The position numbers and the translations under genes were made by a program. Of a DNA stretch of 64,000 nt, positions 1-60,663 are shown piece after piece. The stretch comes from a virus. Numbering within the stretch: position 1 is the stretch's first letter; each line of letters begins with the position of its first letter. The stretch spans positions 1 to 64,000 of IMG/VR virus record IMGVR_UViG_3300013132_000034; one strand, given 5' to 3'. The notes under the pieces are model-generated. The model made no database searches and had not been told where the DNA came from. It was given only the letters and a program-made list of their open reading frames with translations.

Positions 1-132
1 AGAGTAAGTGTAGGTGTATTGGTATTTGTTGGAGTTATTGTAGCGGTAGGTGTTTGTGTAGGGGTATCAGTAAGAGTAAGTGTAGGTGTATTGGTATTTG
101 TTGGAGTTATTGTAGCGGTAGGTGTTTGTGTA
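1..132. repeat. 72-bp-period direct repeat in Pro/Thr tract
   Basis: A 60-bp segment at 1-60 recurs identically at 73-132, giving a 72-bp period (24 codons) inside the Pro/Thr-coding tail of the gp15-like gene. Exact nucleotide identity suggests recent duplication or homogenisation. Confidence 0.85.
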
Positions 133-1064
133 GATGTTTTGGTAATAGTAGGTGTATTGGTAATAGTAGTATTTGTTGGAGTTACTGTTGCAGTGAGTGT
201 ATTAGACGGTGTTTGTGTAGATGTTTTGGTAATAGTAGGTGTATTGGTAATAGTAGGTGTATTTGTTGGAGTTACTGTTGGAGTGAGTGTATTAGACGGT
301 GTTTGTGTATTGGTAGGAGTCGGTGTTTTAGTACCAAACGTTTCAGTAGGTGTATTTGTGAATGATGGTGATGGTGTAAAAATAGGGGTAGCAATAGGCG
401 GGGGAAGCGAGGCAACCGAGACAAAGTCAGTGTTAATATAAAAAATATTAGAAACATTATTGTTTTTAAATTCTTTAAATAACCACCCTTTTATAATAAA
501 TGTGGTATCACCAGTTACTTCATATTTTTTTCTTGCGTCTAATTCTGTAGGGTAATCTACTTTTATATTACCATCCCACAAAACTTCCGATCTTATTTCT
601 TGTGGTATTGAGAGCCCAGCTTCATCAGGTATCTTCCAACTTAATATCATATAAGGGTCGTTATATGGTAAAAAATTTGAAACAATTTGTTCAAAATCGC
701 TAATATATTTTGCTATAATTGACATCTTAATTTTTATATTAACTGGTACAGGTGTCTTAAGATATGAAGAAGTTACATCATTATTTTTTTTGTTATAAAA
801 ACCAGCTATCTTATTAAAAACTCTTGTATTATCTCGCGAAATGTCTTCTATAGATATAGCAACGGCAGGCAGAGTAAGATTTTGAGATTGATTAGCTATA
901 TCATGTAAAACTCTTTGTTTGTTGGGGCTGTAGATATACCTTACTTGTAGCTCACTTTGCGCTTTTCTATTTGAATCAAATTTTTTTATGGTTACATTAT
1001 CAAATGCTGATACAAATTGAGTTACTAAGTTTTTAATTTCAAAACTAAAAGCTTTAGCTTTCAT
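1..1064 (-). CDS. gp15-like tail sheath terminator paralogue with Pro/Thr-repeat tail (partial at left edge)
   Basis: About 354 codons are visible, from ATG at 1064 to the window edge with no stop. Residues 1 to about 210 align along their length with the next gene upstream, by eye around 60% identical, and carry the T4 gp15 pattern: a VTIKKF strand, a VRYIYSP segment, SIIAKY followed by NFLPYNDPY, and IIKGWLF near the domain end. From about residue 212 the protein becomes a long low-complexity tract of TPT, NTPT and ITPT units that is still running at the edge. In T4, gp15 caps the tail and stabilises the contracted or extended sheath. The start is 4 nt after the stop of the upstream copy. 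The Pro/Thr tail is not part of known gp15; I infer surface display or glycosylation. The true C-terminus is unseen. Confidence 0.75.
121..312. repeat. 87/90-bp imperfect direct repeats in Pro/Thr tract
   Basis: The segment beginning GGTGTTTGTGTA recurs at 121, 208 and 298, spaced 87 and 90 bp. The first two copies are nearly identical over their length and differ mainly by a 3-bp indel, so the reading frame is kept. This adds to the 72-bp repeat at its left. Confidence 0.8.
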
Positions 1065-1068
1065 TAAT

Positions 1069-1791
1069 TTACTCTGCAACAAATGAGCTTATAGAATCAA
1101 TAAAGCTTTGAATAGAATTTATGCTATCAGTTAAATTAAAATTATTATTAATTTCAAATATATTTTTTACATTATTATTTGTTAAATCTTTAAATAACCA
1201 TCCCTTTATAGTAAATGATGTGTCGCCTAAGACTCTATATTTGTCATTGTAGGAAATATCAGTTGGGTAGGTAAGACTTATATCTCCACTCCAAAGTACC
1301 TCAGATCTTATTTCCTGAGGAATGGCTAATTTAGCTGCATCAGGCACTCTCCAACTAATTACTATGTAAGGATCATTATAAGGTATGAAATTAGAAAGTA
1401 TTTGATCCATATCACTTTGAAATTTTGTAATAATTGACATATTAACTCCAATGTTTACTGGAACGGGGGTTCTTAAATATGATGTTAATGAGCTGCTTTC
1501 ACTTTCTTCTTTTGATTTGCCAGTATAAAAACCTGCAATCTTATTAAACACACGGTCATTGTCTCTAGATATACTCGTAATTGATACAGCAACAACAGGT
1601 ATGGTTATATTTTGTGATTGATTTGCAATATCATACAAAACTCTTTGTTTTGGGCTAAAAACATAACGAACCTGAACTTCTTCTTGAGCCTGTCTTTCCG
1701 AATTAAAACGCTTTATTATTACATTATCAAAAGCAGCAACAAACTGAGTCATTAAATCTTTGACTTCAAAGCTAAAAGCCCTTTCTTTCAC
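1069..1791 (-). CDS. gp15-like tail sheath stabiliser / tail completion protein
   Basis: A 240-residue protein matching T4 gp15 (272 aa) in order of elements: an N-terminal IIKRF strand, VRYVFSP, an [11 protein letters not shown] region replacing the T4 loop, [14 protein letters not shown] then FIPYNDPY, and FTIKGWLF in the C-terminal beta domain. gp15 forms a ring on top of the tail tube and sheath and joins tail to head. I choose the GTG at 1791 because it aligns the N-terminus (KERAFSFE) with the ATG of the downstream paralogue (KAKAFSFE); a TTG sits one codon upstream. It follows the gp4-like gene by a few bases and precedes its own paralogue, so the pair arose by tandem duplication. This copy lacks the Pro/Thr tail. 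Confidence 0.8.
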
Positions 1792-1795
1792 CAAA

Positions 1796-2248
1796 TTATT
1801 TAATGTTTAATTCATGCTCAGTTAGTATTAAAAACTTATAACCTTTCTTAGTGCAAAATGATTTTGCTGCATCCCATTTTGCAGTATTTTGAATAAACAT
1901 CTGAGCTTCATATAAAAACGTAGTATTCTTTTTATTACCTTTTGCAGGTTTTAATGTTTGTTTGTAAGGTTTTATTTCAATTAAATATTTTTCAATTTTT
2001 TCATTATCTAATTGCAACTTGACATAATTATCTACAAAATAGCGATGCATTTTGCCATCTAAAGGATTCATATAAGGTATTACATAGTTTTCACTTCCCC
2101 ACTCAATAACCCGGGTATTAATATCACACCATTTAAAGAATTTAAGCTCGTAACCTGAGCGATAAATTGGATAAGTTGAACCTTTAAATTTTTTTTGGTT
2201 TATAGGTTTATAGATTCCTTGATTATATCTATCGTTTTTAGAAAACAT
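1796..2248 (-). CDS. gp4-like head completion protein (nuclease-fold)
   Basis: 150 residues, the usual length of T4 gp4 (also called gp50/65). The family signature is clear: a YRSGYELKFFKWCD segment near residue 30, VIEWGSE, IPYMNPLDGKMHRYFVD around residues 60-72, and IEIKPYKQ near residue 90. The D...ExK arrangement (D73, then E and K in IEIKP) resembles a restriction-endonuclease-like core. In T4, gp4 acts after DNA packaging to let tails join heads. The gene sits between gp13-like and gp15-like genes with 1-nt gaps, a head-to-tail joining cassette. ATG start; no separate promoter motif is seen, so it is likely cotranscribed with the gp13-like gene. Confidence 0.85.
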   Translation of the reverse strand: MFSKNDRYNQGIYKPINQKKFKGSTYPIYRSGYELKFFKWCDINTRVIEWGSENYVIPYMNPLDGKMHRYFVDNYVKLQLDNEKIEKYLIEIKPYKQTLKPAKGNKKNTTFLYEAQMFIQNTAKWDAAKSFCTKKGYKFLILTEHELNIK

Positions 2249-2249
2249 T

Positions 2250-3326
2250 TTAACCTAAGAAGAATTGAGGAGGAGCCACATCTCCTAAACCGGGGGCGCC
2301 AGTATAAAGCTTTTCTTCTAGTTCTTTTTTTTCTGCTAAACCTTGCGCTAACATATCATTAAAATTGAGCGTACCGCCCCCCAAGAGATTCATATTTTGA
2401 TATTTACCCCTAATTTGTCCAATAGCTATCTTGGTCAATGCTAATGCGTATTGATATACCCAAGGTTCTTTAATTATATCTCTCAGCGGTCTCTCAACAT
2501 AGCATGGTAAAACACCATAAAAGCGGCTACCTGAGCCTGGAGTTCTGGGAGGAGGGAACATCGTTAACATTTGTGTACGTTCATCGAACAACAAGTATCT
2601 CCTTTGGGCTAGCACCTTTTCTCTAGTGTCTAACCAATTCTTTAAGATAACCCAACTTATTAAATCAAAGCCATAATTACCCATAGCATAGCTAAAATAT
2701 GTTTGCTGTGCTAAAGTTTGTTCAATAGTAAACAAAGTATTAACCCCGTTAGTTGAACCTTCCTCAAAATCTATAATTTCTATAACTTTTCTATAATCCA
2801 TGATATCATAATCAAAGCTATTAACATATTTTTCTTCATTTTCATTTACAAATACAAAATTAGTTGAAAGTGCTGGGTTAAAAGAAGATATTTCAGCATA
2901 TTTAGTTTGATTTAAAATTTCATTTTTAAATAAACCATTCATATATGTAGCGCTCAAGGTTGTTGAAGTTGCAAAAACGCTGCTAGGCACATTTGTATTT
3001 GTAACAAAAGCTTTTACACCAGGAGTATTAATTCTGTTAAAATATGGAGTTATTGAAAATAACTGATCTAATCTCAAACCGACATTATCTATATAAAGAT
3101 TAGAATCAAATATTAATATCTCTTCAGTATAACCTGCAAATTTTGAAAACATTTCACATGCAATAGAAATGTTTTCATATAATTGATCTTGATGCACTTC
3201 AAGATTTACTAATGGTGCACCTAATGCACGAGAAATTCTTTGCCCTAATCTACTATAATTGTCAATCTTACTACCAAGATTAGTACTTAGAAAAGCTGAT
3301 ACAGGAGTTACTTCTGTACATGTCAT
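2250..3326 (-). CDS. gp13-like neck / head-closure protein
   Basis: 358 residues. It has the layout typical of the T4-like neck protein family found beside portal: an N-terminal LGAPLVNLEVHQDQLYE segment (strand plus helix), a central RRYLLFDERTQMLTMFPPP segment, then a late WVYQYALALTKIAIGQIRGKY helix, a GGGTLNFNDMLAQG turn and a short C-terminal FFLG ending. Many relatives end in a similar hydrophobic tetrapeptide. T4 gp13 (309 aa) works with gp14 to close the packaged head. A CATAAATA late motif is 5 nt upstream of the ATG and overlaps the end of the portal gene. Assignment to gp13 rather than another neck protein is by family memory, not a search. Confidence 0.7.
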   Translation of the reverse strand: MTCTEVTPVSAFLSTNLGSKIDNYSRLGQRISRALGAPLVNLEVHQDQLYENISIACEMFSKFAGYTEEILIFDSNLYIDNVGLRLDQLFSITPYFNRINTPGVKAFVTNTNVPSSVFATSTTLSATYMNGLFKNEILNQTKYAEISSFNPALSTNFVFVNENEEKYVNSFDYDIMDYRKVIEIIDFEEGSTNGVNTLFTIEQTLAQQTYFSYAMGNYGFDLISWVILKNWLDTREKVLAQRRYLLFDERTQMLTMFPPPRTPGSGSRFYGVLPCYVERPLRDIIKEPWVYQYALALTKIAIGQIRGKYQNMNLLGGGTLNFNDMLAQGLAEKKELEEKLYTGAPGLGDVAPPQFFLG

Positions 3327-3331
3327 TTAAT

Positions 3332-3339
3332 TATTTATG
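3332..3339 (-). promoter_or_regulatory. T4-late-type promoter motif for gp13-like gene
   Basis: CATAAATA on the minus strand, 5 nt before the ATG at 3326. It overlaps the portal stop codon. Confidence 0.6.
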
Positions 3340-5122
3340 CTGCGGGAACTGCGGAAGCCCCAGCTGCACCTGCAGCTTCACCACCGCCGGCAGGTGCTGT
3401 CTCTGCACCGGCTGGTGGTTCGCCACCGGCTACAGTAGCTGTACCTGGACCAAAGGCGGGCGGGGCGGCACCTACTCCGCCACCGCCGCCTTCACCTTCC
3501 GGAGTTGCAGGTTGTGCACCTCCAGCCAATGCTTTTTGCCAAGCTGGGCCAGCACCTTCAATTTGTGCAAGTTCCCATGCAAATTCTTTATCTTTTCTGA
3601 GAAATTCTCTATTAGCCATGATTTCCTTCTCTGTCCAGCCCAAATACCGCTTTTGTGCATATGTCTTAGAAACACTATCATTTGCGGAAAAATCATTAAA
3701 GGTTTTAACTTTAAGTTCTAGCTTTTGTTGCTCTCTTAGTTCGTAGAAATTAGAAGGAGGATTGAAAGCAAGATCAATTATATTTTCCTTAAGGTTATGT
3801 TTTTCCCACAAACCCTTTAATTTTAAATGTGTGATAAAACCATTCTTGAGACCTGCAGCAAATCTTTGTTGTAATCTAACAATAAATTTTGCAAACTTTA
3901 ATTCTTCTCTTAATATGTTTTCGCCACCTTGATACTGATCTTCAGGATTCAATCTAGTAGTCGGTACTTTTAATGCTTTGTATAGTTTTTTAACAAAATA
4001 CATTAAGTCAGTCAATTCACCTAAATTCTGACCACCCGGGAGCGATGTTACTGAAGTTCCATCACTCCCCGCTCTCTTGGCAAACCAAAAACTATCCAAC
4101 ATAGATTGCGGATTAAATTTTTGAACTGCTGCATTTTGATCAATATCAAAGGTACGTTTTGACCAATAATTATTCATTAATTTTCTAATATAAGCTTCTG
4201 CTTTCGGAGGTGACATATTACCAACATCCACATTAAAGATCAAACGCTCTGGAGCTCTTACTAAACGATAAATTACAATTGAATCTTCAATTAAAGAAAG
4301 TTGACGGTAAGCCCGGCGTGCATTTTCAATAAATGGTAATCTTAATGTTTTGTTTTCATTCCATATGCCTGAATTAATATATGTTACCTGATTTTTGTCC
4401 ATCGGTATCATTTTGAATTCTTTTATCTTGAGAGGATTTGTTGGATCCATAATAGGCTTTCTCAAAAGATAGCCTTTCACAATCATATTTTGAACATTAG
4501 AAAAAATAGGATCAATGAGTTCGCAAGGCATTGTAACAATACCAAGAATACCTTCTTCAGGATACGATTTGTGAATAATGTGTTCGAAGTAAAGTTCAGC
4601 TTCAACTAGCATTCTCCTAAAATATTCCCACCCGTTAAGATCTAAATTAAAATAACCGACATATCTTTCAAATTCTTTAATAAGCGTTTCTTTTATGGTC
4701 TCTTCAATTTCTTCTGGTCTATTAAAGTTTAATTTTACTATATCACCTTTATCGTCCTTGTTGACACATTCATCACATATTTCATCAAGTGCATCTGCTA
4801 CTTCAGCAAACGCAGCCATAATTCTATAATCCATCATTCTCTTAGGTTTATCTGTTTGTACGTTTGCATACATGAACTGATAAAACTGAGACTCTCTCAT
4901 TACGCTTGCAACAGCGTTATCTCCATAATTTAGGGAAGATGAGATGCTCTGTCTCTGCAATGCTTCTTGACGGGAAGATCCCTGGTCATGAAAAACTTTA
5001 AATTTTGGATTTAATTGTTCAAATCTATCAAGAATGGAATAAGATGAGTAAGGTAGCTTATTACTCATAAACTTGTAAAGTTGCCTACCAAATCCGCCAG
5101 AATTTTCTTGATCGTTAGCCAT
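3335..5122 (-). CDS. Portal protein (gp20-like)
   Basis: 595 residues against 524 in T4 gp20. The core begins with a short basic N-terminus (GRQLYKFMSNKLPYSS), then RRMMDYR-type text around residue 95 (KRMMDYRIMAAFAEVADALDEI), a LNLDLNGWEYFRRMLVEAELYFE region, and PCELIDPIF, all typical of T4-like portals, which form the dodecameric DNA gate at the packaging vertex. The last 70 or so residues are an unusual Gly/Ala/Pro/Glu-rich tail, which T4 gp20 lacks; the DNA there is distinctly more GC-rich than its surroundings. Upstream I see AATAAGTA 7 nt before the ATG, a variant of the late motif. Neighbours gp13, gp4 and gp15 support the call. Confidence 0.88.
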   Translation of the reverse strand: MANDQENSGGFGRQLYKFMSNKLPYSSYSILDRFEQLNPKFKVFHDQGSSRQEALQRQSISSSLNYGDNAVASVMRESQFYQFMYANVQTDKPKRMMDYRIMAAFAEVADALDEICDECVNKDDKGDIVKLNFNRPEEIEETIKETLIKEFERYVGYFNLDLNGWEYFRRMLVEAELYFEHIIHKSYPEEGILGIVTMPCELIDPIFSNVQNMIVKGYLLRKPIMDPTNPLKIKEFKMIPMDKNQVTYINSGIWNENKTLRLPFIENARRAYRQLSLIEDSIVIYRLVRAPERLIFNVDVGNMSPPKAEAYIRKLMNNYWSKRTFDIDQNAAVQKFNPQSMLDSFWFAKRAGSDGTSVTSLPGGQNLGELTDLMYFVKKLYKALKVPTTRLNPEDQYQGGENILREELKFAKFIVRLQQRFAAGLKNGFITHLKLKGLWEKHNLKENIIDLAFNPPSNFYELREQQKLELKVKTFNDFSANDSVSKTYAQKRYLGWTEKEIMANREFLRKDKEFAWELAQIEGAGPAWQKALAGGAQPATPEGEGGGGGVGAAPPAFGPGTATVAGGEPPAGAETAPAGGGEAAGAAGASAVPAA

Positions 5123-6061: not shown

Positions 6062-6301
6062 TCAAGCCTTAATTTTTGCTAAAGAAAATACCACCGTGGT
6101 TGTCTGATTCATCTCTATTTTTGCAATTACATTAAATCCTAGAGGCAGCATTCTATTAATTAATTTGTCAACCCACTCGTTACTTACATTTACTAGCATT
6201 GATTTATGATCCGGGTCACAAAAAGTATGCCTTGCGAATTCTTCGCAAACCGCAGCACCGTTTTCATAAACGTTGCTCATACAATAGTATTTATTCTGCA
6301 T
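6062..6301 (-). CDS. Small protein, function unknown
   Basis: 79 residues from the ATG at 6301 (MQNKYYCMSNVYENG). A TTG twelve codons upstream could extend it, but the ATG overlaps the end of the -1-frame Pro/Thr tail by 11 nt, a common coupling arrangement. It contains several Cys and His residues (YYC, AVCEEFARHTFC), which could bind metal, and a C-terminal beta-type stretch (VVFSLAKIKA). I do not recognise the family. It lies between the membrane/coiled-coil gene and the nuclease gene. Confidence 0.55.
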   Translation of the reverse strand: MQNKYYCMSNVYENGAAVCEEFARHTFCDPDHKSMLVNVSNEWVDKLINRMLPLGFNVIAKIEMNQTTTVVFSLAKIKA

Positions 6302-6710
6302 TCTTATAAAATGACAATCTAAAGTTTGAATCAAGCGAGGAAGGTGTATTATCTATAATTTTTATAAAATTATCTGTAGGTGTTGAGGAAGGAAGTTCCC
6401 AAACTTTATTACTCCATTCAATTACACCATCTTTTAACGGCAATTTATTTAATAATATGGTACTAGTAGATGTTATTGTAGGTGTAGGCAGTAAAGATTG
6501 AATTACTGTTGAAGTAATAGTAGTAGTAGGTGTAATTTTTATAAAATTTGTACACGATTGTGTTATAGCGGGAGTTAAAGAAAAAGTATAACTTGGGGTG
6601 ATAGTTGGTGTTGCAGAAGGTGTGGATGTATTAATAGGTATTTGCGTGACTAATGGTGTTGGGGTGGGTGTAACAAATGGTGTTTTTGTTAATTCTATTT
6701 CAAAACTAAC
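6291..6710 (-). CDS. Pro/Thr-rich C-terminal extension in the -1 frame of the membrane protein
   Basis: Directly after an A-AAA-AAG heptamer (6716-6710), the -1 frame is open for 139 codons to a TAA at 6291. It contains no ATG, GTG or TTG start that would explain independent translation, and the frame is closed just upstream by a stop at 6729-6731. The product begins VSFEIELTKTPF, passes through TPTPTP and TPTITPSYTF units like those on the virion proteins here, then a non-repetitive KDGVIEWSNKVWELP segment, and ends near SFYKNAE. It is most simply read as a tail added to the upstream 280-aa protein by -1 frameshifting, giving a product of about 415 residues. A length error in the A run would give the same fusion. 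Confidence 0.65.
   Translation of the reverse strand, partial: VSFEIELTKTPFVTPTPTPLVTQIPINTSTPSATPTITPSYTFSLTPAITQSCTNFIKITPTTTITSTVIQSLLPTPTITSTSTILLNKLPLKDGVIEWSNKVWELPSSTPTDNFIKIIDNTPSSLDSNFRLSFYKNAE
6671..6691 (-). other. Weak inverted repeat downstream of slippery heptamer
   Basis: TAACAAA and TTTGTTA arms (7 bp) flank a 7-nt loop, starting 18 nt after the heptamer. The stem is AU-rich and further away than usual frameshift stimulators, so its role is doubtful. Confidence 0.3.
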
Positions 6711-7537
6711 TTTTTTTTTAATAAAAAATTAAATACGATTAACAAGATTACAGCTAATGGATCAAATACAAAAACCAAACACAATATAAAATATTTAACA
6801 GCAGTATCTAAATCTAAGTTAAAAGCATTTGCTATAAACTTGAATGTACTAATATCTGACTCTGAAGATTCTTTTTGCTTAAGTTCTAAAATTTCATGAT
6901 TTATAGTGTCAAGCTGGGTTAAAAGAGCCTCATTTTCTTTGTTTATATTATCTATCTGTAAATTAGCGTCTGTGACTTCTTTAGAAGCAGCTTCAATCAT
7001 AGAAGTTTTTGCTTTTAATGCTGAAGCATCGGTTACTGACTGAGTCTGATCGCCTCCAAACAAACCGCCTTTTTTAGAAGTAGTTATAGTGGTATTTTGT
7101 TTTGTAATAGTATTGAGTCTTTCTTCTTGTGAAGCTCTTACAAATGTAAGGGTTTTAATTCTTTCTTTATTATATTCAAATTTTTGTATCAAGGCATTTT
7201 TCTTTTCCTCAACAAATTGTATTTTTGATGTGTATAATTCTGATTTAAATTTACTCTTATTATATGCATCGGTTAAAAAACCAAAAATACCTAAGCTTGT
7301 TATAAGCATAAGAACAGTTATTGCCACATATAGATAAATTCTTATTAGTTTGTTGAGTTCTGAAAAAAATCTATATAAACAACTTGTTGCTACTAGTTTT
7401 CCTATTTCTAAAGCACTAGCCATTAGTACAACTGCCCAGAAACTACCTGAAAACAATAAGGATATACCTTTTATAGAGAAAAATGCCGCAATACCGGCAA
7501 TTAAAAATGATGTTGTACCAACAATTATCTTAAACAC
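6695..7537 (-). CDS. Membrane protein with long coiled coil
   Basis: 280 residues from a GTG at 7537. Hydrophobic segments lie near residues 3-22, 32-52 and 70-92, followed by a charged coiled-coil region from about 100 to 240 with a glycine-rich kink (KKGGLFGGDQ), and a last hydrophobic segment near 248-272. The second segment contains ALEIGKLVATSCLYRF, a pattern I associate with conserved membrane proteins of marine T4-like phages; function unknown. The zero-frame C-terminus is a lysine run followed by LVLK. An AATAAATA motif is 4 nt before the GTG, suggesting late expression. The gene ends in a slippery heptamer (see 6710-6716), so two products are likely: 280 aa, and about 415 aa with a Pro/Thr tail. 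Confidence 0.75.
   Translation of the reverse strand: MFKIIVGTTSFLIAGIAAFFSIKGISLLFSGSFWAVVLMASALEIGKLVATSCLYRFFSELNKLIRIYLYVAITVLMLITSLGIFGFLTDAYNKSKFKSELYTSKIQFVEEKKNALIQKFEYNKERIKTLTFVRASQEERLNTITKQNTTITTSKKGGLFGGDQTQSVTDASALKAKTSMIEAASKEVTDANLQIDNINKENEALLTQLDTINHEILELKQKESSESDISTFKFIANAFNLDLDTAVKYFILCLVFVFDPLAVILLIVFNFLLKKKLVLK
6710..6716 (-). promoter_or_regulatory. Candidate -1 ribosomal frameshift site, A-AAA-AAG
   Basis: On the minus strand the zero frame reads TTA AAA AAA AAG, ending in the heptamer A-AAA-AAG in the same phase as the dnaX site of E. coli. The zero frame ends five codons later at TAG (6695-6697), while the -1 frame continues 139 codons. No strong SD-like stimulator was seen upstream. 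Confidence 0.6.
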
Positions 7538-13712: not shown

Positions 13713-14483
13713 CTACATACCTATACTATTTAATTTGTTAAAAAACTTGTTATTTTTTGTAGAATTTTTAATCAAATTTTTTTGCTTTCTAAAACCTTCT
13801 GCAGACCATATAAATGAATTATCACTATAGTTTGTATCAACAAAATTCTTGGGCAATTCTTTTATATTAATATTATTTTTAAAAATTTCATTAGTAAAAA
13901 ATTCTGTATGCCCCCACATAGTATCAAATATATTACATTTATCACTAATACTTGTAAATAATTTTTTAGTATTTTTATTATTTTTTATAAACATAAAATT
14001 AGTTTTATATCTTTTAGTGCCTACTTCATTCAAAAAACCATTATTATCAACATTAAAACTTTCAAGCAAAATATCATACTTATATGAATAAGGTATTAAA
14101 AAACTTAAAGATTTATTGCATAGGCTATCTGCATCTAAAAAAACTATATTATTAATTTGCAAATTCAATAATTTTTTTATAAAATAAAAACGTGCATTAT
14201 TACAATAACAATTTTTTTCAGAAACATACTCATAAGTATTAAAAAACTTTAAAAATTCATTATCAATAGTGTTTAATTTTTTGACTATATGTTTTTCTGT
14301 ACATAGTTTTTTGTTGTCAAAAAATATACTAATATGAGATGTTTGGTAGTTTAATAATTCACCGGGTTCACCTATAAAATATAGATAAAAATTAGCATTC
14401 TTGTTATTTGCTTTTATAGATTTAAAGCAAGGAATTACAAAATCTAAATACTCTTTATCAGAAACTGCAGCTATATTAAGCAT
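13713..14483 (-). CDS. GT-A-type glycosyltransferase (GT8-like)
   Basis: 256 residues beginning MLNIAAVSDKEYLDFVIPCFKSI, the usual first strand and helix of a GT-A fold. The metal-binding DxD is in NIVFLDADSLCNKSL near residue 118. Further on, TNFMFIKNNKNTKKLF and WGHTEFFTNEIF resemble the acceptor-side strand and helix of GT8-like enzymes, and ELPKNFVDT is a common late motif. It overlaps the preceding small gene by 8 nt and precedes the radical SAM gene by 1 nt. Donor and acceptor are unknown. Very AT-rich with many Asn and Lys codons, as in its neighbours. Confidence 0.68.
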   Translation of the reverse strand: MLNIAAVSDKEYLDFVIPCFKSIKANNKNANFYLYFIGEPGELLNYQTSHISIFFDNKKLCTEKHIVKKLNTIDNEFLKFFNTYEYVSEKNCYCNNARFYFIKKLLNLQINNIVFLDADSLCNKSLSFLIPYSYKYDILLESFNVDNNGFLNEVGTKRYKTNFMFIKNNKNTKKLFTSISDKCNIFDTMWGHTEFFTNEIFKNNINIKELPKNFVDTNYSDNSFIWSAEGFRKQKNLIKNSTKNNKFFNKLNSIGM

Positions 14484-14943
14484 TTTTTATCTTATCAAAA
14501 ATTTTTTCTAAATCTACAAAACATTTTTTGAATTTATTATTTTTAATAGTTAATTTACAATCATTTATAGAAAAAAATCTATTTAGATTAGTCAATGTAT
14601 ATTCGTAATTTTTTTTTGTAGCAAAATTCTTTGCAGAAGTTTTAAAAACTATTAAATTCCATACAGACGTAAAAAATGGGTGAGTTTCAATAAAAGACAT
14701 AGTTTTAATTAACGATTCATTGCATGTACTATCAATACAAATTAAACCACATGACCACTTTTTTTTGTCTGCAGTTAATCTAATAGGGTGATCAGCTTTT
14801 AAAAATTCTTCTCTAGTAACTAACCCATTCGAATGACTTAAAACATCAAAAGGAAAAAACCCAAAATGTTTTTTTATTTCATGTATATAATTAGAACCAT
14901 ATAGTTTTTTAACTTTTAACATGTAATCTAGTGCTGAAGGCAT
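14476..14943 (-). CDS. Unknown protein in glycan cluster
   Basis: 155 residues. The middle contains HPIRLTADKKKWSCGLICID and a helical segment around SLIKTMSFIETHPFF; the C-terminal third is Asn/Lys rich. No catalytic motif is recognised and it is too short for a full GT-A domain, though it might be a degenerate or accessory glycosyltransferase piece. It has its own late-type motif (TGTAAATA, 5 nt before ATG) that overlaps the stop of the GT32-like gene, so it may open the transcript that runs through the radical SAM, amidinotransferase and PIG-L genes. Confidence 0.55.
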   Translation of the reverse strand: MPSALDYMLKVKKLYGSNYIHEIKKHFGFFPFDVLSHSNGLVTREEFLKADHPIRLTADKKKWSCGLICIDSTCNESLIKTMSFIETHPFFTSVWNLIVFKTSAKNFATKKNYEYTLTNLNRFFSINDCKLTIKNNKFKKCFVDLEKIFDKIKNA

Positions 14944-17757: not shown

Positions 17758-18405
17758 TCAAGGATAGCTACGGGTTCCGCCAATTCTAATTTCAGAACTT
17801 ACCATTTGCCCACCGCAAAACTTATCATCTACAACCCAACCAGTAAATACTGCACCATTATTAACAGTTGTGAGAGTATGATTAGATCCGTAGGGACCTG
17901 TCCATACATTAACAATACCAGATTGAGTACCTAAATTAAAACCAACATCTACAAAAATATAATAACCTGATCCCATACTTGAAGCAGGTGAACCACCACT
18001 AAAATTCATTACTATATTACCAGTAGAGTTTTTTGCACCTGTTGCTTGACCATTTGCAACACAAGCCGGGGGCGGTGAATAAGATTTTTGAAATTCAGAA
18101 ATACGGCTTGGTGAATATGGTGAGCCCGGGCCATTGTATTGCCAGGCTTTTGGTGATGTTGATGGTGAAAATGAGTTTATATTACCATTGTAATAAACTT
18201 CTTGTTGCTGCCACATGCATGTATTTGAATTAGTTACTATAACATTAGCGCCGCCTGTGACATTGTTGCCCATAAAACATTGTTCTAATGCAAATAAAGA
18301 TATATTTGAAGTACCGGGTACACCAGAAGCCCCAACACCACTTATCCAGTTTCTTATTTGTGAAATGGTTAATGTTGCGTTATTTGAAGTAGTAATAGCA
18401 GCCAT
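17758..18405 (-). CDS. Putative tail fibre tip / receptor-binding protein
   Basis: 215 residues, rich in Ser, Gly, Asn and Thr, with scattered Cys pairs. It starts AAITTSNNATLTISQIRNWI, a short helix common at the head of small phage fibre proteins, and ends with beta-type text (GWVVDDKFCGGQMVSSEIRIGG). The SPSTSPKAWQYNGPGSPYSPSRISEFQKSY centre is proline-rich. Its ATG overlaps the stop of the S74 fibre gene by one base, so the two are made together. A receptor-binding or fibre-tip role fits context and composition but no domain is recognised with certainty. Confidence 0.55.
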   Translation of the reverse strand: MAAITTSNNATLTISQIRNWISGVGASGVPGTSNISLFALEQCFMGNNVTGGANVIVTNSNTCMWQQQEVYYNGNINSFSPSTSPKAWQYNGPGSPYSPSRISEFQKSYSPPPACVANGQATGAKNSTGNIVMNFSGGSPASSMGSGYYIFVDVGFNLGTQSGIVNVWTGPYGSNHTLTTVNNGAVFTGWVVDDKFCGGQMVSSEIRIGGTRSYP

Positions 18406-20366
18406 TATTTTCTCTCCAACTTTTTATTTAAATCCTTTATGCATTCAATTAAAAGTGGTATAATTTTTTCATATCTAACTGCTTTGTATCCGTTGGTGCG
18501 TGTTTCTACTGCTTCAGGTAATATTTTTTCTACTTCTTGCGCTATAACACCTATATCATGGCCTTTATAATTTGAATCTTCGCTCCAATCAAACGAAACA
18601 CCATTAATTTTATCTATTTTTTCTAGTGGAGAATCAATATTTACTACATTTAACTTTAACCTTTCGTCAGAAGTATAATATGCAACGACGTCTCCACCAT
18701 TTGCATAAATGTTGCCTATTACTTCCAGATTACCATTAATTAAAGCACCTGCATTTGTGCCAATACCGGATGAAAAATAACCATTAGCTCTGACTTGAAA
18801 CGTTTCTGTACCATCTGTTCTATTTGGGCCTGTTGCATTATATCGAATAGAAAGAATTGTATCAGGTAAAGCGGTTGAAGAGGTTGTTCCAAGCACCATG
18901 GAAGGGCCGAAAGCAGAGCGGCCAATCAATTTTAATGCAGTTGGGCTAGAAACATCATCAGTAAAAATTTGAACTACGTGATCATTAGGTAAAGTTGTTG
19001 GATTAACTTTTCCTTTCGAAAAATAATGACCATTTACATTTGCATCAAAGAAATTAAAACCAGTTTTTGATATGATTTCACCATTCATATCAATATCAAC
19101 ACGGCCCCTATTACCGCCTTCAGCTGTTACCACATCACGAATTACTAATCCGCCTGCAATATGAATGGATGAGAGTGCACTTGTATTAGATGATGTTGGG
19201 GAGCCTCTACTTACGGAGCCAAACCCTCTACCAAAAGAGGCATTACAGTATCTATCAAAAATAATTCTATTAAAAGCAAAATTATCATTAAAGAATCTTG
19301 CTGTATTAAAATTGTCTTGTTGTTGAAATATTGTAACTGCATCTTGAGCTGTTTGATTAATAACAGAAAGCGCTGAAGTTACAGATACAAATGTTTCCAA
19401 CACTGTAAAATCGCCTAAAGCTGTGAGATTTCCAAGTACCAAACAATCATTATCAATCATTACACTGTTTGTAAATCTTGAAAAACCATCAACTCTTAAT
19501 GCGGGTTGTGAAGAGTTACCGCCTGTCTTTTGGAAGTAAGCAGTTCCGGAAGAAGTGAGTAAAAATGAGCTTGGATTGTTGTTGTCACTCTGTCCAGGAA
19601 AGAAATTAATACCACTTAAACCAAATAAATCTGAAGAGCCTGCAATATTACCAAAATTACCTTCTGTTTTAATAACAAAAATATCATTAGTAGGGCTATA
19701 AACTGTTAATGCCCCCTCATTTAACCCTGTTGTATTAATATTAATACGATAATCCAAGTCACATTTGAGATTGTTTTGCTTAATATCACCAAAATAAAAA
19801 ACACCATCGCGTTGAGATGGGTTAAAACCAGTATCTGATGTTATTGCCCAGTAGTTTGAATTTAATTCTGCAACCTTTATGGTGCCATAGAATGGCTCTG
19901 CTGTATTATAGTCAAACCAAAAAGCTTTGCGGTAATCATTAACTCCTATTACCTTTTTGCCAAAAACTGATTCAGAAATACGAACTTTACCGGTAGGCGA
20001 AGTTGTTTTTTCCAATACCAACTCTTCATATCTTGGGCCTATGTCAAATTTTCCAGATGCTAGTCCTGTCTCGTCTAAAGCATATAAAGTACTCTCATTA
20101 GTATCGTAAAAAGAATCACCAGGCTGAAAAAAACCTACTGGTAGTGAATTTATAACCGTATCTACATTTGGAAAGGCGCCTTGAAACAAGTTACCCGCAA
20201 CATTACCTCCCCCACCCAGCCCATCACCAATAAACAAACGCTTTGAATCTATTGTATACCCCAATTCACCTTCATCTAAGCGTATATTTTGGCGTTCCGA
20301 TTCAGTACCTCTCCGTACTAAAATCTTTAAAATAGTTGTATCGGTGATTTCAAATACGCCTGGCAT
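18405..20366 (-). CDS. Tail fibre with Mtd-N-like head and S74 intramolecular chaperone
   Basis: 653 residues. Near residue 12 the segment KILVRRGTESERQNIRLDEG, followed by FIGDGLGG, is the Mtd-N-like module that anchors many phage fibres. A long beta-rich shaft follows. The last 90 or so residues are a Peptidase S74 (endosialidase chaperone) domain: YYTSDERLK carries the catalytic Ser-Asp with nearby Lys, followed by GHDIGVIAQEVEKILPEAV. These domains fold the trimeric fibre and then cut themselves off before the serine, so the mature fibre should end near residue 565. CTTAAATA lies 5 nt before the ATG. It probably forms a receptor-binding fibre with the genes on either side. Confidence 0.85.
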   Translation of the reverse strand: MPGVFEITDTTILKILVRRGTESERQNIRLDEGELGYTIDSKRLFIGDGLGGGGNVAGNLFQGAFPNVDTVINSLPVGFFQPGDSFYDTNESTLYALDETGLASGKFDIGPRYEELVLEKTTSPTGKVRISESVFGKKVIGVNDYRKAFWFDYNTAEPFYGTIKVAELNSNYWAITSDTGFNPSQRDGVFYFGDIKQNNLKCDLDYRININTTGLNEGALTVYSPTNDIFVIKTEGNFGNIAGSSDLFGLSGINFFPGQSDNNNPSSFLLTSSGTAYFQKTGGNSSQPALRVDGFSRFTNSVMIDNDCLVLGNLTALGDFTVLETFVSVTSALSVINQTAQDAVTIFQQQDNFNTARFFNDNFAFNRIIFDRYCNASFGRGFGSVSRGSPTSSNTSALSSIHIAGGLVIRDVVTAEGGNRGRVDIDMNGEIISKTGFNFFDANVNGHYFSKGKVNPTTLPNDHVVQIFTDDVSSPTALKLIGRSAFGPSMVLGTTSSTALPDTILSIRYNATGPNRTDGTETFQVRANGYFSSGIGTNAGALINGNLEVIGNIYANGGDVVAYYTSDERLKLNVVNIDSPLEKIDKINGVSFDWSEDSNYKGHDIGVIAQEVEKILPEAVETRTNGYKAVRYEKIIPLLIECIKDLNKKLERK

Positions 20367-33844: not shown

Positions 33845-35285
33845 AATTTATATTTCTTCCTATACCACCAATAATACCGTCTGCAAGCGGTTGACCGTAT
33901 ATCGGTTGAGTTGGTGAAGGTGTAATAGTTGGAGTTGGTGTTGGTTGAACTGTAGATGGAGGTGTTGGTGAAATTTGCGGTGTAGGTTGTGGTGTACTTG
34001 TTGGATTTGGTGTATTTGTTGGTGAAGGTGTTACTGTTTGTGATGGTGTATTTGCTGGTGTATCGGTAGGTGTTATTGTTGGTGTTTCGGTAGGTGATAT
34101 GGTTTGAGTTGGTGTAAAGGATGGTGTCACTGCAGGTGTTGCAGTTTGTGTAGGTGTGCGAGTAGGTGTAGATTGAGGTGTTGATGTCTGTGTTACAGAT
34201 TTTGTTGGTGTAACCGTTCTTGTAATTGAGCAAGTTGGAGTAAATGTAGGTGTTGGTGTTGTTGTAGGAGTTTTTGTAGGGGTGGGCGAGGCAATTGTAC
34301 CTGCAACATTAAAATTCTTGATACCAAAGTCGGTATTGTTCAGGGATGAAAAGTTTAATCCTAATTTTAAGCTATCTAAAGCAATACCTGTGCCTAGAGT
34401 TGGGCTGTTATAATTTAAAATAGTTACATAATCATTATAATCACCTGGTTTAATTTTTACTTCTATTGTTTTACCTAAATCTGTTAATCTTATCTTTATT
34501 CTGTTACCTGAATTTGCAGTAAGCGATGATGCTAGATTATTGGTGAGTAAAATAGGCAAAGAATAGAATGAGCTGCTTAAATTATCAGATTGTATTAAAT
34601 GTTTATAGCTATTTAAATAGGAATCTTTAATAGAAACAGAATTTGGCACTACAGTTGAAGTTATATTGTTAAGCGTTTGTCCAAATCTACCAGTAAAATC
34701 AAATCCCACCCCAAGCAATCCACCAGCCTTGCCAGCATAAACAGACCCTACATTTTTTCGTTCTAAGTTAGGGTACCCCCAACCTGCAGGTTTATTTGGG
34801 CCATCTTTCCAATCTACAGCCCATACGGGAAAATCACTATTGCTAGTACTATAATAGTACAACAAACTGTTATTAAGCCAAATTCTCCACCCTGTAGGGT
34901 ATATACCATAAGTAGTATCGTAAAATCCTATTCTTAGACCCCCATCATTTCTATAAATTGGTCTATCTGTATAATTTGAATAAGCTGAAATATAGATAGG
35001 TGTGAATGTATTATTGGCTTCACTTAGTAAGAGATGTGAATTATTAAATATATCACCTGTTAATGGTAGGTACCCTAGCCCCCAACCAGGCGAACCACCG
35101 CTTAGAGAAGAATTACCTTCATAAAAAAATAAACAAAATCCTTCGGAGCCTGTTTCATTTAAATTTTTATCTAACAAATTACTATATACATTAGTAACAT
35201 AATCAAATGAAATGACAATATCACCTTCAGGCGACAATTCATAATTAGGAAAAAAAGTATATGACCGGGTTTCGTTAAAATTCAT
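33843..35285 (-). CDS. Lectin-like virion protein with long Pro/Thr tract
   Basis: 480 residues. The first 330 resemble an L-type-lectin or concanavalin jelly roll: GFCLFFYEGN then GGSPGWGLGYLPLTG, a GGLLGVGFDFTGRFG strand pair, IRLTDLGKTIEVKIK and a closing LGLNFSSLNNTDFGIKNFNV. From about residue 335 to 460 the chain is almost pure Pro/Thr/Ser repeats (TPTKTPTTTP, TPTQTATP, TPANTPSQT and the like), ending in a short QPLADGIIGGIGRNIN cap. The layout of sugar-binding head plus mucin-like stalk suggests a surface appendage. It follows the 90-aa Pro/Thr gene by 1 nt. The GT60-like gene lies about 1.5 kb downstream in the same direction. Confidence 0.7.
   Translation of the reverse strand: MNFNETRSYTFFPNYELSPEGDIVISFDYVTNVYSNLLDKNLNETGSEGFCLFFYEGNSSLSGGSPGWGLGYLPLTGDIFNNSHLLLSEANNTFTPIYISAYSNYTDRPIYRNDGGLRIGFYDTTYGIYPTGWRIWLNNSLLYYYSTSNSDFPVWAVDWKDGPNKPAGWGYPNLERKNVGSVYAGKAGGLLGVGFDFTGRFGQTLNNITSTVVPNSVSIKDSYLNSYKHLIQSDNLSSSFYSLPILLTNNLASSLTANSGNRIKIRLTDLGKTIEVKIKPGDYNDYVTILNYNSPTLGTGIALDSLKLGLNFSSLNNTDFGIKNFNVAGTIASPTPTKTPTTTPTPTFTPTCSITRTVTPTKSVTQTSTPQSTPTRTPTQTATPAVTPSFTPTQTISPTETPTITPTDTPANTPSQTVTPSPTNTPNPTSTPQPTPQISPTPPSTVQPTPTPTITPSPTQPIYGQPLADGIIGGIGRNIN
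33899..34300. repeat. Low-complexity Pro/Thr codon tract
   Basis: About 400 bp of degenerate GGTGTxxxxGTTGGTGT-type units (minus strand ACACCTACT-like codons) encoding the Pro/Thr tract of the lectin-like protein. Same codon style as the tract at 1-440. Confidence 0.8.
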
Positions 35286-35286
35286 T

Positions 35287-35559
35287 TTATGGCAAGGTTA
35301 GAGTTGGTGTCGGTGTAACAGTACATGTAATGGTTGGTGTTGGTGATTTTGTTGGGTCAGGTGATGTAGAGGGTGTTGGAGTCGGTTGTGGTAATGGGTA
35401 GCTTGATAAGAGAAAACAACTATCACATGAATTTGAGCCAACAATTTCCGCTTTTCTTACATTTATTAACCCACTATTACCAGTAGAAATATAACAATCA
35501 CCATAATAATTTACAGTGCTTGATAAAGAATCTGCATATATATAAAGTGAATTTGCCAT
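35287..35559 (-). CDS. Small Cys-containing protein with Pro/Thr tail
   Basis: 90 residues. The first 55 form a compact part with three or four cysteines (YYGDCYIST; SNSCDSCFLLSS), the remainder is a Pro/Thr/Ser tail (QPTPTPSTSPDPTKSPTPT) ending TPTPTLTLP. It precedes the 480-aa lectin/Pro-Thr gene by 1 nt and has AATAAATA 5 nt before its ATG. A tempting reading is that the two were once one gene with two Pro/Thr segments, but each has its own start and stop. Function unknown; probably a displayed virion component. Confidence 0.62.
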   Translation of the reverse strand: MANSLYIYADSLSSTVNYYGDCYISTGNSGLINVRKAEIVGSNSCDSCFLLSSYPLPQPTPTPSTSPDPTKSPTPTITCTVTPTPTLTLP

Positions 35560-35591: not shown

Positions 35592-38500
35592 CTATACAAC
35601 TCTTTGTACATATGGATATGGCGGGTTACCCTTAATAGTAATATTAGTTCCTACAGGACCACCTGAACTTGAAACTGGAGATTTAGCAGTTATTGTGTTG
35701 TAATAACCATATGGAGCGCATGCGAATTCGTTAATTGGTTGTGTTGATGCATATACAAAACCAATATCACTTGTCCAGTTATTTGTACTTGATAATATTA
35801 AGCCCTTGACATAAGAAGAATCACTATTAAAGTCAGAAACAAATACTAGAGTAAAGTTTGGATTAGCAGTATTTGCATAAAATACAGTAAATGCAGATGG
35901 ACTTATAAGTCTAGTATATGCAGCTGTTAATGTATAATTACCATTTGCAGCAGTTAAACCAGCACCACTTACATTTATTACTAATGCATCTGGACATAAA
36001 TTATTCCATGGTAGCGGGGTTGGTGTTGGCACAGGGTTAGTTACTGTTGGTGTAGGTGTCAATGTAGGTTGCGGTGAAGGTGTGGGGGTTACAACAGGGC
36101 TAAATATTAAACCAGCATCACAATTAACGAATTCACCAACTATCAAGCTAGGTGATGCAGATGTACCAAACCATAAAATTGATTCATCTTTGTTTTGATA
36201 TGATGAGAATTGACCTGTAATAGTATTTCCATAAAAAGCTGTAAGCGGCAAAGTAACCGAAAAATTTAAATCTTTTATAAAAAATTCGGGTTTGTAAGCA
36301 ATATGTTTTATAAAATCTACATTAGCATTATTAATATAAAATTCATGGTATATATTAACAAATACATTATTACTATTTTTCGCGAAATAGTTGAGAACGA
36401 ATGTATTCGTGTCTTCGTTATAACTTAAAACAGGCTTGTCAATACGTTCTATGTTTGTATCATCATCTAAATGAACATAAAAACCTGATAAATTTTCGTA
36501 ACTAACATTAAAAGTAGGATAAATTTTTAAAAATTGAGGATTTGTAATGTTTATTTCATAAATTTCAGGATACAATACTTTTTTATTTGAAGCACTAAGT
36601 TCTGGTATAAGAACCATTTTTGCAATATAAGCTATATTTTGTTTTTCGTTAAAAAATAATGTACTAAACTTTTCAAGTTTTTTATTATTGTTATATATTT
36701 TAACAAAATTCTTTGAGCTATCGAAGGGTTCAATTATATTCTCTATATAATTATAAGAAAGTTTATCGAAAATAAAATAATCTTTTGTTTCAATAAATAA
36801 AACGTTATAAATTAATTCAAAATTAACAACTCCTTGTTTTATATTATCAACAACAAAACTTGGATATTTTTCATAAACGGTTGAAAGAGCAATATCAAGC
36901 GTATTTACATTTGTAGTATTTGCATTCTTAACATACAAATTGCCAATTTCTTCATATCTGCTTTCATAAATTGATTTGTTTTTATCAAGATTTGTTGATA
37001 AAGCTTGTACTGACGTTTGATATTCTGTAGGTACCGCTAAATTAACAAATTCTGCATTGTCATCTCTATAATTTAATGTACCGGGTCTTACAGTAGTAGC
37101 AGAATTAGATATGGCGCAAGGTGTTTCACCAGCTAAATTAAATCTAAACCCTTCTAAATCTACCAATACATTAGCAGATAGAGGGAATGTATACGAAAAT
37201 GTAGCTCTATCGACGTTATTAGGTCGAGTATAATCGTCGTTTAAGCTTCCTTCTAACAATTCACTGTAGTAAACAGGTACTGAAGAGTTAAAATCTGACC
37301 TATCTGAAGAAACATCTAATCGTAAATTACTTAAAGGGTCTACAAAAGTAACACAGTCTAATAAGACGCAATAAGTTACTTTAAAAATATCACAGTATGT
37401 GTCGATGCAAGAGCCATCTTGTTGAACCTCGCAAAAATGACCTTTTCCATAAGCTATAACAAGTAATGGTGTTGGTAGTGGTGTAAACCTAACAGGAGCA
37501 TTGTAGGGGAAATTAATAACATAATTAGCATAAGGGTCTACTCCTGGTAATAATCTATTAATTCCTCTTGCTGATAAACTTGTATAGTAACCGCTGCCTG
37601 GGGGTATTTGTGAAACAGTTCTAGATGTTACACCAGATATATCTTTGTCAGGATTGGGTATAGTTAAATCAATATTAAACCCGCTATCAAAATCATAAAA
37701 TTTATAACCGTCTAACAGTAAACAATTTTTTATTCTTAAATTGGTAAAATTATTTATATTTAAACCTTTTCTTCCTGTGCCATACAAACCACCGCGCCCG
37801 CCAGTGAAATTAAAAAAATCTAATTCTTGTTCTGAAATAAATTGTCCTCTATTTTTACCACCACGGCCAATCCCTACAGGATTTATTTCTTTATAAAGAC
37901 CAAAATTATTTCCGTATATATCATTTTTGTATTTTGTGAGAGTCTTGTTTAAAACTAATAAATTAGATTGTCTTTGTTCTAAAGGATACAAATTATCTTG
38001 TACGGGATAAACGTCGGAATTAGCCCATACTGATTTTGATGAACCTTCAAAAAATTCTGTACTGTCTATATCACGTGACATGCCTATAGGTTGATAACCT
38101 ATAGTTTCACTTCTGCTATGGTAAGCATAAAAGTTTTTATATAATGGATTACTTACTATATTACCAAAAAGATATTGAGCAGTTCTATTAAAATGCATCC
38201 ATGAAACATCTTCTTCATAAATTAATGGTGATTCAAAATCTGTTTCAGATAAGTTAGTAATATTACCATATTGAGAAGGGTCAGGAAATACGTAAACTTT
38301 ATTTGTTTTTAATTTATTATTATCTATATCTACTGTATGTTTAAAATTATTAAAATTTAATACGCCTAATTTGTCAGGTAGAAAGAATCCCCCTATTTGT
38401 CTTATATTTTTTAAATTACTTTCATTTTCAACTGCAGCTGCAGAAGGAAATCTTTTATTTAAAAAATTTGTAGATTTATCTTCGGCTTCAAAAAGTAACC

Positions 38501-39464
38501 CCGAAGCTATATCTGAAAGAGTATTTCCTACACTTAAATAATAATAGTCAGTGCCAATAAATTTTTGTATTAAATCTTTTTCTAAATTTAAATTTAAATT
38601 ATTTTTTTCTAAATTATTTATTTGATTTATAAAATCCCTATCTTTTAAATATTGTAAATCATCAGAATTTACTTGAAAATTAATTGAATAAGAGGTATTT
38701 AAATCGTTGAGAAAAAATGTATAAGCAGTTATAGCATCAATTATGATTTTATCAAAATCAGTAAATAATTTTGTATTAAATTCATTAGTATTTGATGTAT
38801 AAAAATCTGATGAAAATGTTTTGTTGTATGTAGTTGCGGGTAAGTCAGGGTTAAGATCAAAATATTGTGATTCATCGTACAGTTCATTTATTTCTAAACC
38901 TATATTATTTTTAACAGAAGAAAGATCGAATAAATTAGTTTGATTGGATACAAGCTCTATAGCTTTTAATGCTTTAAAAATTTCATTTTTTATTAAAGTT
39001 TTTACACCAGCTTGCGAACCCTTCAATGAATTTTCATATTTTTTAAACGGTACATTCTGTCTTAATAATGAGTAATAGTTACATATTTCTTTAATTTTTT
39101 TAGTGAAAAATGGTATAACAGAATATAAATCTAAATCATTATTAAAATCTGCATTAGTAACGAATCTTCTTTCTTCTAAAGTAGAGAAATTAAGTAAAAC
39201 TTCTCTTAAAAAACCTACAAATGTAGATCTAACGAAATCAGTGCTTTCGATTTTATCTATTTTTTTATATTTGTACCATTGTAAGAGATAGTATTTGTAT
39301 TGTGAAACTAAGAACTCGCTATCTGATTCGGATGAATTTGTTTTTATTAAAAAATTTAAAAATGTGAAAGGTTCATTATAATCGCCTGCATTAACTGTTT
39401 TGCCGGATATTATAGAATCAGGTACAGATATTAAAATTGTATTTTTTTCTAAAACATCGGACAT
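35592..39464 (-). CDS. 1290-aa baseplate/adhesin-type structural protein with Pro/Thr linker
   Basis: The largest gene in the window. The N-terminal 300 residues are helical and end-on to the baseplate genes, which fits attachment to the tail. The middle is beta-rich with aromatic and Asn-rich loops and several Cys (CEVQQDGSCIDTYCDIF and a following CVLLDC). Near residue 1130 a short Pro/Thr linker (TPTPSPQPTLTPTPTV and a following PVPTPTPLPW) leads to a separate C-terminal domain of about 130 residues that ends PPYPYVQRVV. ATTAAATA lies 5 nt before the ATG. It may occupy the position of T4 gp7/gp10-type peripheral wedge proteins, but I recognise no sequence homology. A cell-surface-binding role is inferred. 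Confidence 0.6.
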   Translation of the reverse strand: MSDVLEKNTILISVPDSIISGKTVNAGDYNEPFTFLNFLIKTNSSESDSEFLVSQYKYYLLQWYKYKKIDKIESTDFVRSTFVGFLREVLLNFSTLEERRFVTNADFNNDLDLYSVIPFFTKKIKEICNYYSLLRQNVPFKKYENSLKGSQAGVKTLIKNEIFKALKAIELVSNQTNLFDLSSVKNNIGLEINELYDESQYFDLNPDLPATTYNKTFSSDFYTSNTNEFNTKLFTDFDKIIIDAITAYTFFLNDLNTSYSINFQVNSDDLQYLKDRDFINQINNLEKNNLNLNLEKDLIQKFIGTDYYYLSVGNTLSDIASGLLFEAEDKSTNFLNKRFPSAAAVENESNLKNIRQIGGFFLPDKLGVLNFNNFKHTVDIDNNKLKTNKVYVFPDPSQYGNITNLSETDFESPLIYEEDVSWMHFNRTAQYLFGNIVSNPLYKNFYAYHSRSETIGYQPIGMSRDIDSTEFFEGSSKSVWANSDVYPVQDNLYPLEQRQSNLLVLNKTLTKYKNDIYGNNFGLYKEINPVGIGRGGKNRGQFISEQELDFFNFTGGRGGLYGTGRKGLNINNFTNLRIKNCLLLDGYKFYDFDSGFNIDLTIPNPDKDISGVTSRTVSQIPPGSGYYTSLSARGINRLLPGVDPYANYVINFPYNAPVRFTPLPTPLLVIAYGKGHFCEVQQDGSCIDTYCDIFKVTYCVLLDCVTFVDPLSNLRLDVSSDRSDFNSSVPVYYSELLEGSLNDDYTRPNNVDRATFSYTFPLSANVLVDLEGFRFNLAGETPCAISNSATTVRPGTLNYRDDNAEFVNLAVPTEYQTSVQALSTNLDKNKSIYESRYEEIGNLYVKNANTTNVNTLDIALSTVYEKYPSFVVDNIKQGVVNFELIYNVLFIETKDYFIFDKLSYNYIENIIEPFDSSKNFVKIYNNNKKLEKFSTLFFNEKQNIAYIAKMVLIPELSASNKKVLYPEIYEINITNPQFLKIYPTFNVSYENLSGFYVHLDDDTNIERIDKPVLSYNEDTNTFVLNYFAKNSNNVFVNIYHEFYINNANVDFIKHIAYKPEFFIKDLNFSVTLPLTAFYGNTITGQFSSYQNKDESILWFGTSASPSLIVGEFVNCDAGLIFSPVVTPTPSPQPTLTPTPTVTNPVPTPTPLPWNNLCPDALVINVSGAGLTAANGNYTLTAAYTRLISPSAFTVFYANTANPNFTLVFVSDFNSDSSYVKGLILSSTNNWTSDIGFVYASTQPINEFACAPYGYYNTITAKSPVSSSGGPVGTNITIKGNPPYPYVQRVV

Positions 39465-39469
39465 GTTAT

Positions 39470-39477
39470 TATTTAAT
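39470..39477 (-). promoter_or_regulatory. T4-late-type promoter motif for 1290-aa protein
   Basis: ATTAAATA, 5 nt before the ATG at 39464; overlaps the end of the preceding gene. Confidence 0.55.
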
Positions 39478-52597: not shown

Positions 52598-52603
52598 ATA
52601 CAA

Positions 52604-60054: not shown

Positions 60055-60663
60055 TTACAAATTAGTTGTAGTAATTGGCTGAGTAGCATCAGGAGATAGA
60101 ATCTTTACTAATAACTGATCAAAAGAAAATTCAAATGTTGTATCTATTTGAGATGCGTCCCTATAACTATAGTTAATCTCTCCTAATAAAGTAGGAAATG
60201 CACGGGTAAAGTCAAATTGTATAACTTTATTGTCATATTCATCTAAACCATACAATGTAAAGTTTGCTTTATAAACATTAGAAGTTGTACTGTTTATTAA
60301 ATCTCTATGATCTAATTGATTATATTTTTGATTATTAATTAAATCTAACCAACTATATATAACCCAATAATTGTTAAAATAATTATCTATTGTAAAACTA
60401 ACGGTAACGTTTGGATAAGGTGGTCTGCTTTCAGATGAAACATGCAAGGTTTGCCCGGCATATCTTGAAACTACTTCATTTATTGAAACGCTCGGTATAT
60501 TAATACCGAAGACGCTAAATGAAATTGAATCAAATAAAATATTACCGGGTTGTCTTGTTATTTTTTTGTTTATACTTTTTAAAGCTTCCGGTAGCGTCAT
60601 GACAAATAAAAATTTGTCTTTACGTTGTTTATTAAAAGGTGACTGCGCGTATTCTGTGCTCAT
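60055..60663 (-). CDS. Second tube-fold protein (gp19/gp54-like paralogue)
   Basis: 202 residues, encoded between terminase and sheath. It has tube-like wording: KFLFVMTLPEALKSINKK, then IPSVSINEVVSRYAGQTLHVSSESRPPYPNVTVSFTIDNYFNNYWVIYSWLDLINN, and a C-terminal NYSYRDASQIDTTFEFSFDQL strand pair, matching the gp19 order of loop, acceptor strand and closing strand. It is not close to the 181-aa tube protein, so it is probably a specialised ring such as a tail terminator, tube initiator or tape-measure partner. The start overlaps the terminase stop by ATGA. T4 has no gene between 17 and 18. Confidence 0.6.
   Translation of the reverse strand: MSTEYAQSPFNKQRKDKFLFVMTLPEALKSINKKITRQPGNILFDSISFSVFGINIPSVSINEVVSRYAGQTLHVSSESRPPYPNVTVSFTIDNYFNNYWVIYSWLDLINNQKYNQLDHRDLINSTTSNVYKANFTLYGLDEYDNKVIQFDFTRAFPTLLGEINYSYRDASQIDTTFEFSFDQLLVKILSPDATQPITTTNL

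Follow-up and report, generated by a model that had tools for sequence, protein, structure and literature searches.

A run of nine adenines (A9) in a membrane-protein gene of a myovirus is probably a programmed slippage site, most likely acting during transcription, from which the gene would yield a short form and a tailed form of its product. The window, that is, the whole stretch of DNA analysed, covers 64 kb out of a 97,367-base IMG/VR virus record, and the virus is a T4-like myovirus by Pfam matches, namely:

3335-5122: portal protein Gp20 (Pfam, E 1.6e-101)
57705-60011: tail sheath protein (Pfam)
60660-62366: terminase (Pfam)

The elements of the putative slippage gene are the following:

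6695-7537, minus strand: zero-frame membrane-protein gene, GTG start, 280 codons (280 aa)
6711-6719, minus strand: A9 run, candidate slippage site (TTA AAA AAA AAG), immediately past the last transmembrane (TM) helix
6695-6697, minus strand: zero-frame TAG stop, the end of the short form
6291-6710, minus strand: Pro/Thr-rich tail in the -1 frame (139 codons, then TAA), lacking a usable start

The 3' end of the gene reads ...TTT TTA TTA AAA AAA AAG TTA GTT TTG AAA TAG, so that the run, exactly nine long, has its first A at codon position 3, and four zero-frame codons separate the run codon AAG from TAG. The -1 frame is closed on the upstream side by TAA at 6731-6729, continues as ATT AAA AAA AAA GTT AGT... 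and stays open until TAA at 6293-6291, 139 codons past the run; its start-type codons are just two TTG, codons 95 and 137 of 145, with no ATG or GTG. A preliminary description of this DNA had reported the same coordinates and frame layout, a 139-codon open -1 frame that lacks a usable start and is closed just before the slip site, and two products of 280 and about 415 aa, all of which was confirmed, the predicted fused product being computed as 414 aa.

In the mechanism that we propose, the RNA polymerase would re-align on the homopolymer, which sits where the last TM helix meets the cytoplasmic tail, and would add one A in a fraction of the transcripts. The extra A would bring the tail into frame, and a single gene would thus give proteins of 280 aa and about 414 aa. 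We infer that slippage does take place in vivo, on the part of the RNA polymerase rather than the ribosome, and that both forms are needed.

The layout of run and tail exceeds chance: A9 or longer runs are scarce in the window, and the run is accompanied by a -1 tail in every close homologue. Long A and T runs are depleted across the window coding sequence (58 kb), in which codon resampling predicts 6.4 runs of A9 or longer and 11.6 of A8, compared with 3 and 4 observed. The only two other coding A9 runs, both on the minus strand (14609-14617 and 52339-52347), lie within the genes 14476-14943 and 51290-52603, respectively, where slippage would lead to truncation. An Rfam search of the window gave no match.

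Close relatives were found by protein-based scans: L011 (87% identity), L012, L013 and L014 (65%), and L002, equal to L015 (61%). All of these carry A9 right behind the last TM helix, with the exception of L011, where the run is A10; the zero-frame stop follows 0-5 codons past the run (no codon separates it from AAG in L012 and L013), and the tail extends for 94-142 codons, always in the -1 frame. The heptamer A_AAA_AAG is in phase in the window, L012, L013 and L002 and is absent from L011 and L095, a more distant relative; these two have A_AAA_AAA in phase, as does any A9 run. The letter 3' of the run is G, T or C. Thus, when homologues are checked for the heptamer and the -1 tail, as the preliminary description suggested, the run and the tail are present in every close relative that covers the region, whereas A_AAA_AAG is missing in L011.

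The tails of the close relatives share the C-terminal consensus FIKIxDNTPS....LSFxK, preceded, except in L002, by IxWSxxxWxLP. In the window, these conserved motifs are:

6390-6422, minus strand: tail motif IEWSNKVWELP
6294-6368, minus strand: C-terminal tail motif FIKIIDNTPSS...LSFYK

A scan for the terminal motif returns the window clade only, always 3' of the membrane gene, with one copy in the window. The tail and the body are both under purifying selection, with dN/dS of the tail in the -1 frame at 0.25 for the window and L011 and at 0.18 for L012 and L013. Between the window and L011, synonymous positions in the body approach saturation (dS of about 2), so retention of the run is not a mere consequence of relatedness. 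Recoding that should give short and tailed forms of the membrane protein, as envisaged in the preliminary description, is supported by the conserved run and by the selection on the tail. A PHROG match of the tail (phrog_15511) was set aside as probably reflecting Pro/Thr composition.

A second clade came to light in a search for the TM4 motif with A9 behind it, and its loci were afterwards collected anew with a protein pattern that ignores the run. Each of the 24 loci of this clade (14 lineages) carries a run of A9-A12 at the same boundary, and the first A of the run falls on codon position 1, 2 or 3. The tails, which end in RRHDYFSRLFKN, FSRLFKN or similar, can be aligned with one another despite their differing frames: -1 with A9, A10 or A11; zero in L233 (A11) and L247 (A12); and +1 in L236, L237 and L257 (all A11). 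The tree neighbours L246 (A11, -1) and L247 (A12, zero) are one A and one frame apart. A lone third branch is represented by a single contig, L095 (44% identity), in which A9 is followed by a Pro/Thr tail in the -1 frame. In L111 and L151 (37-39% identity), a Pro/Thr tail is in frame. In-frame tails are also carried by the distant relatives examined, which include phages of Flavobacterium, Microcystis, Pelagibacter, Xanthomonas, Stenotrophomonas and Salicola as well as large uncultured phages; the named phages are distant relatives only. Three further loci (L212, L215 and L219), recovered with a search pattern in which A9 is obligatory, combine an in-frame Pro/Thr or Pro-rich tail with A9 at the boundary.

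On a tree of 87 bodies, the state of A9 or longer requires three changes, forced by starred branches, a count that alone cannot separate gain from loss; the run-bearing groups stand apart amid relatives with in-frame tails. Recurrence at the same boundary on three separate branches points to a selected feature rather than a sequencing error. Loci picked by the A9 pattern were left out of the statistics. Among 116 bodies of unique unselected relatives, an early end was found in 20 of the 22 with at least nine A and in 0 of the 94 without (Fisher 1.6e-20, an indicative value because the rows share ancestry and kinship is uncorrected). Under synonymous resampling, a run of at least nine A is present in 20 of 20 rows of the slip clades vs 6.9 expected, compared with 7 of 69 rows vs 17.9 expected in the sister group with in-frame tails, and 6 of 27 vs 16.9 in the sister-group rows with KKK, where joint probabilities are overstated by the shared ancestry of the rows. 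The run, accordingly, is retained in groups with an out-of-frame tail and avoided in those whose tail is in frame. Lysine codons alone are a plausible cause of the run in each sequence taken singly (0.07-0.6), but not across 20 lineages.

These observations bear on the type of slippage. Transcriptional realignment on poly-A is associated with a homopolymer of at least 8-9 residues where the frame changes, and the runs here are A9 in the window and L095 and A9-A12 across the members of two clades; a further hallmark, a site under selection with a conserved trans-frame product, is likewise found. The run carries more weight than the dnaX heptamer, and the occurrence of tails in every frame together with the variable A9-A12 length fits homopolymer slippage better than a heptamer that serves the -1 frame only. 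Several points weigh against a transcriptional origin: ribosomal -1 slippage accounts for all the -1 cases, given that A9 holds A_AAA_AAA; the +1 and zero-frame cases depend on five contigs, drawn from few samples, with A11 or A12, the run lengths most prone to homopolymer error; the Lys-rich stretch behind the TM helix raises the odds of A runs; and the case of L095 depends on one contig.

The most serious alternative, although a less likely one, is programmed -1 ribosomal frameshifting on A_AAA_AAG or A_AAA_AAA, at low efficiency and without stimulators. The window, L002, L011, L012, L013 and L095 each have one of the two heptamers in phase, and phage tail genes are known to shift without clear stimulators (PMC5009743). 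However, an SD-like element was not found within 25 nt upstream of the run in any of six sequences, nor was a consistent downstream stem-loop: the one-strand folds (pseudoknots being outside their scope) are weak in five of these sequences, with energies close to those of shuffled sequence, and L011 alone attains z -2.0, in a single window out of the three folded. With the last letter of the heptamer also variable, the E. coli dnaX-type ribosomal signal proposed in the preliminary description finds no support in that form. Moreover, the runs are always at least nine long although seven would suffice, and a -1-only heptamer of this type cannot reach the homologous clade 2 tails in the +1 and zero frames.

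Much less probable is a phase-variable (contingency) homopolymer in the DNA, whereby slipped-strand mispairing would toggle the tail between individual phages. Lineages indeed differ in run length (A9-A12) and tail frame, as L246 and L247 do, but near-identical contigs agree (A10 in L227-L232 and L235; A11 in L236, L237 and L257), A9 is present in both L012 and L013 despite their dS of 0.49, and the window clade is uniformly -1. An error of sequencing or assembly is very improbable, as is gene decay: a lone homopolymer at a frame break and the single contig of L095 would be compatible with it, but the break is shared by independent contigs at 61-87% identity, and tail and body are under purifying selection. 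An indel error in the A run, which the preliminary description held to be the main alternative, is therefore rejected, as five contigs agree. An independently initiated tail gene is hardly credible, for although the tail frame is closed upstream of the run, the -1 frame of L011 and L002 has no ATG, GTG or TTG, that of the window has late TTG codons only, and L111 and L151 have in-frame fusions.

Transcriptional slippage, the favoured reading, can be compared with several known systems. The E. coli dnaX -1 shift makes the shorter form of the protein. The window shares its A_AAA_AAG heptamer in phase but, unlike E. coli dnaX, lacks the upstream SD-like element and the downstream stem-loop, and the letter after the run is not conserved. 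In phage T7, a frameshift in gene 10A/10B adds a C-terminal extension to part of the capsid protein product; this, too, is a phage gene with partial C-terminal extension, but it encodes a capsid protein, and the site is a different one, without a poly-A of nine. In Thermus thermophilus dnaX, transcriptional slippage on A9 sets two C-terminal forms, and homopolymer slippage places the downstream sequence in all three frames (PMC1088944). The exact run of nine and the two C-terminal forms are common to that gene and the unrelated window gene, but slippage leads to the shorter form in the former and would lead to the longer form in the latter. In Citrobacter rodentium tssM1, A11 and the lack of an SD element or stem-loop pointed to RNA polymerase slippage, which was proven by mass spectrometry, and both length forms are needed (PMC4256274). 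The window gene resembles tssM1 in encoding a membrane protein, with poly-A just ahead of a premature stop, an extra A that would restore a C-terminal domain, no SD element or consistent stem-loop, and two predicted length forms; it differs in being a phage gene, identified from sequence, as opposed to a bacterial T6SS gene for an unrelated protein. Slippage on a phage poly-A tract has also been proposed to restore the full-length methyltransferase of Campylobacter phage CPt10 (PMC2853527), a single frame-shift mutation without family-wide conservation shown.

The chances appear about even that this boundary acquired a poly-A transcriptional switch for the cytoplasmic tail on three or more occasions within the family, with slippage supplying every frame, so that run length drifts freely and the gene is effectively insensitive to frame at this point. 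If true, the three occurrences, together with the run-avoiding sister group, would amount to a natural experiment on the need of a phage for two tail lengths in one membrane protein. The literature searched appears to contain little on conserved transcriptional slippage in tailed DNA phages. Gene callers that follow one frame would cut such proteins short and lose the tails, and hence the feature is easily overlooked in annotations.

The 280-aa protein is predicted to cross the membrane with four helices, TM3 and TM4 being joined by a long helical hairpin; in the AF2 model (mean pLDDT 81.3, pTM 0.54), helices span residues 2-28, 33-56, 63-146, 171-226 and 243-279. The KKK end and the tail are predicted to be cytoplasmic by the positive-inside rule, and one might speculate that, in some of the molecules, the tail alters interactions with further proteins of the phage or the host. 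The window protein is unmatched by DUF4407 (PF14362) at the Pfam gathering cut-off of 31.3 bits, and the distant members L030 and L033 score 21.0 and 17.2 bits, respectively, below that cut-off. Fold comparison against the PDB was uninformative, with many unrelated coiled coils at middling Z, and a viral structure library gave low E-value matches to uncharacterised phage proteins only.

Long Pro/Thr-rich stretches (TPTPT type) are also present, in their own frame and with no slip site noted, in four more window proteins:

3-1088, minus strand: Pro/Thr-rich protein
33846-35297, minus strand: Pro/Thr-rich protein
35290-35559, minus strand: Pro/Thr-rich protein
35595-39476, minus strand: Pro/Thr-rich protein

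In L002, glycosyltransferase-like and asparagine-synthase-like ORFs (467-3294), named by eye from their translations, lie 5' of the membrane gene. Elsewhere in the window, the C-terminal 100-130 residues of a 653-aa protein (18405-20366, minus strand) match many PHROG tail-fibre and baseplate families, the best match being the baseplate wedge initiator phrog_8215.
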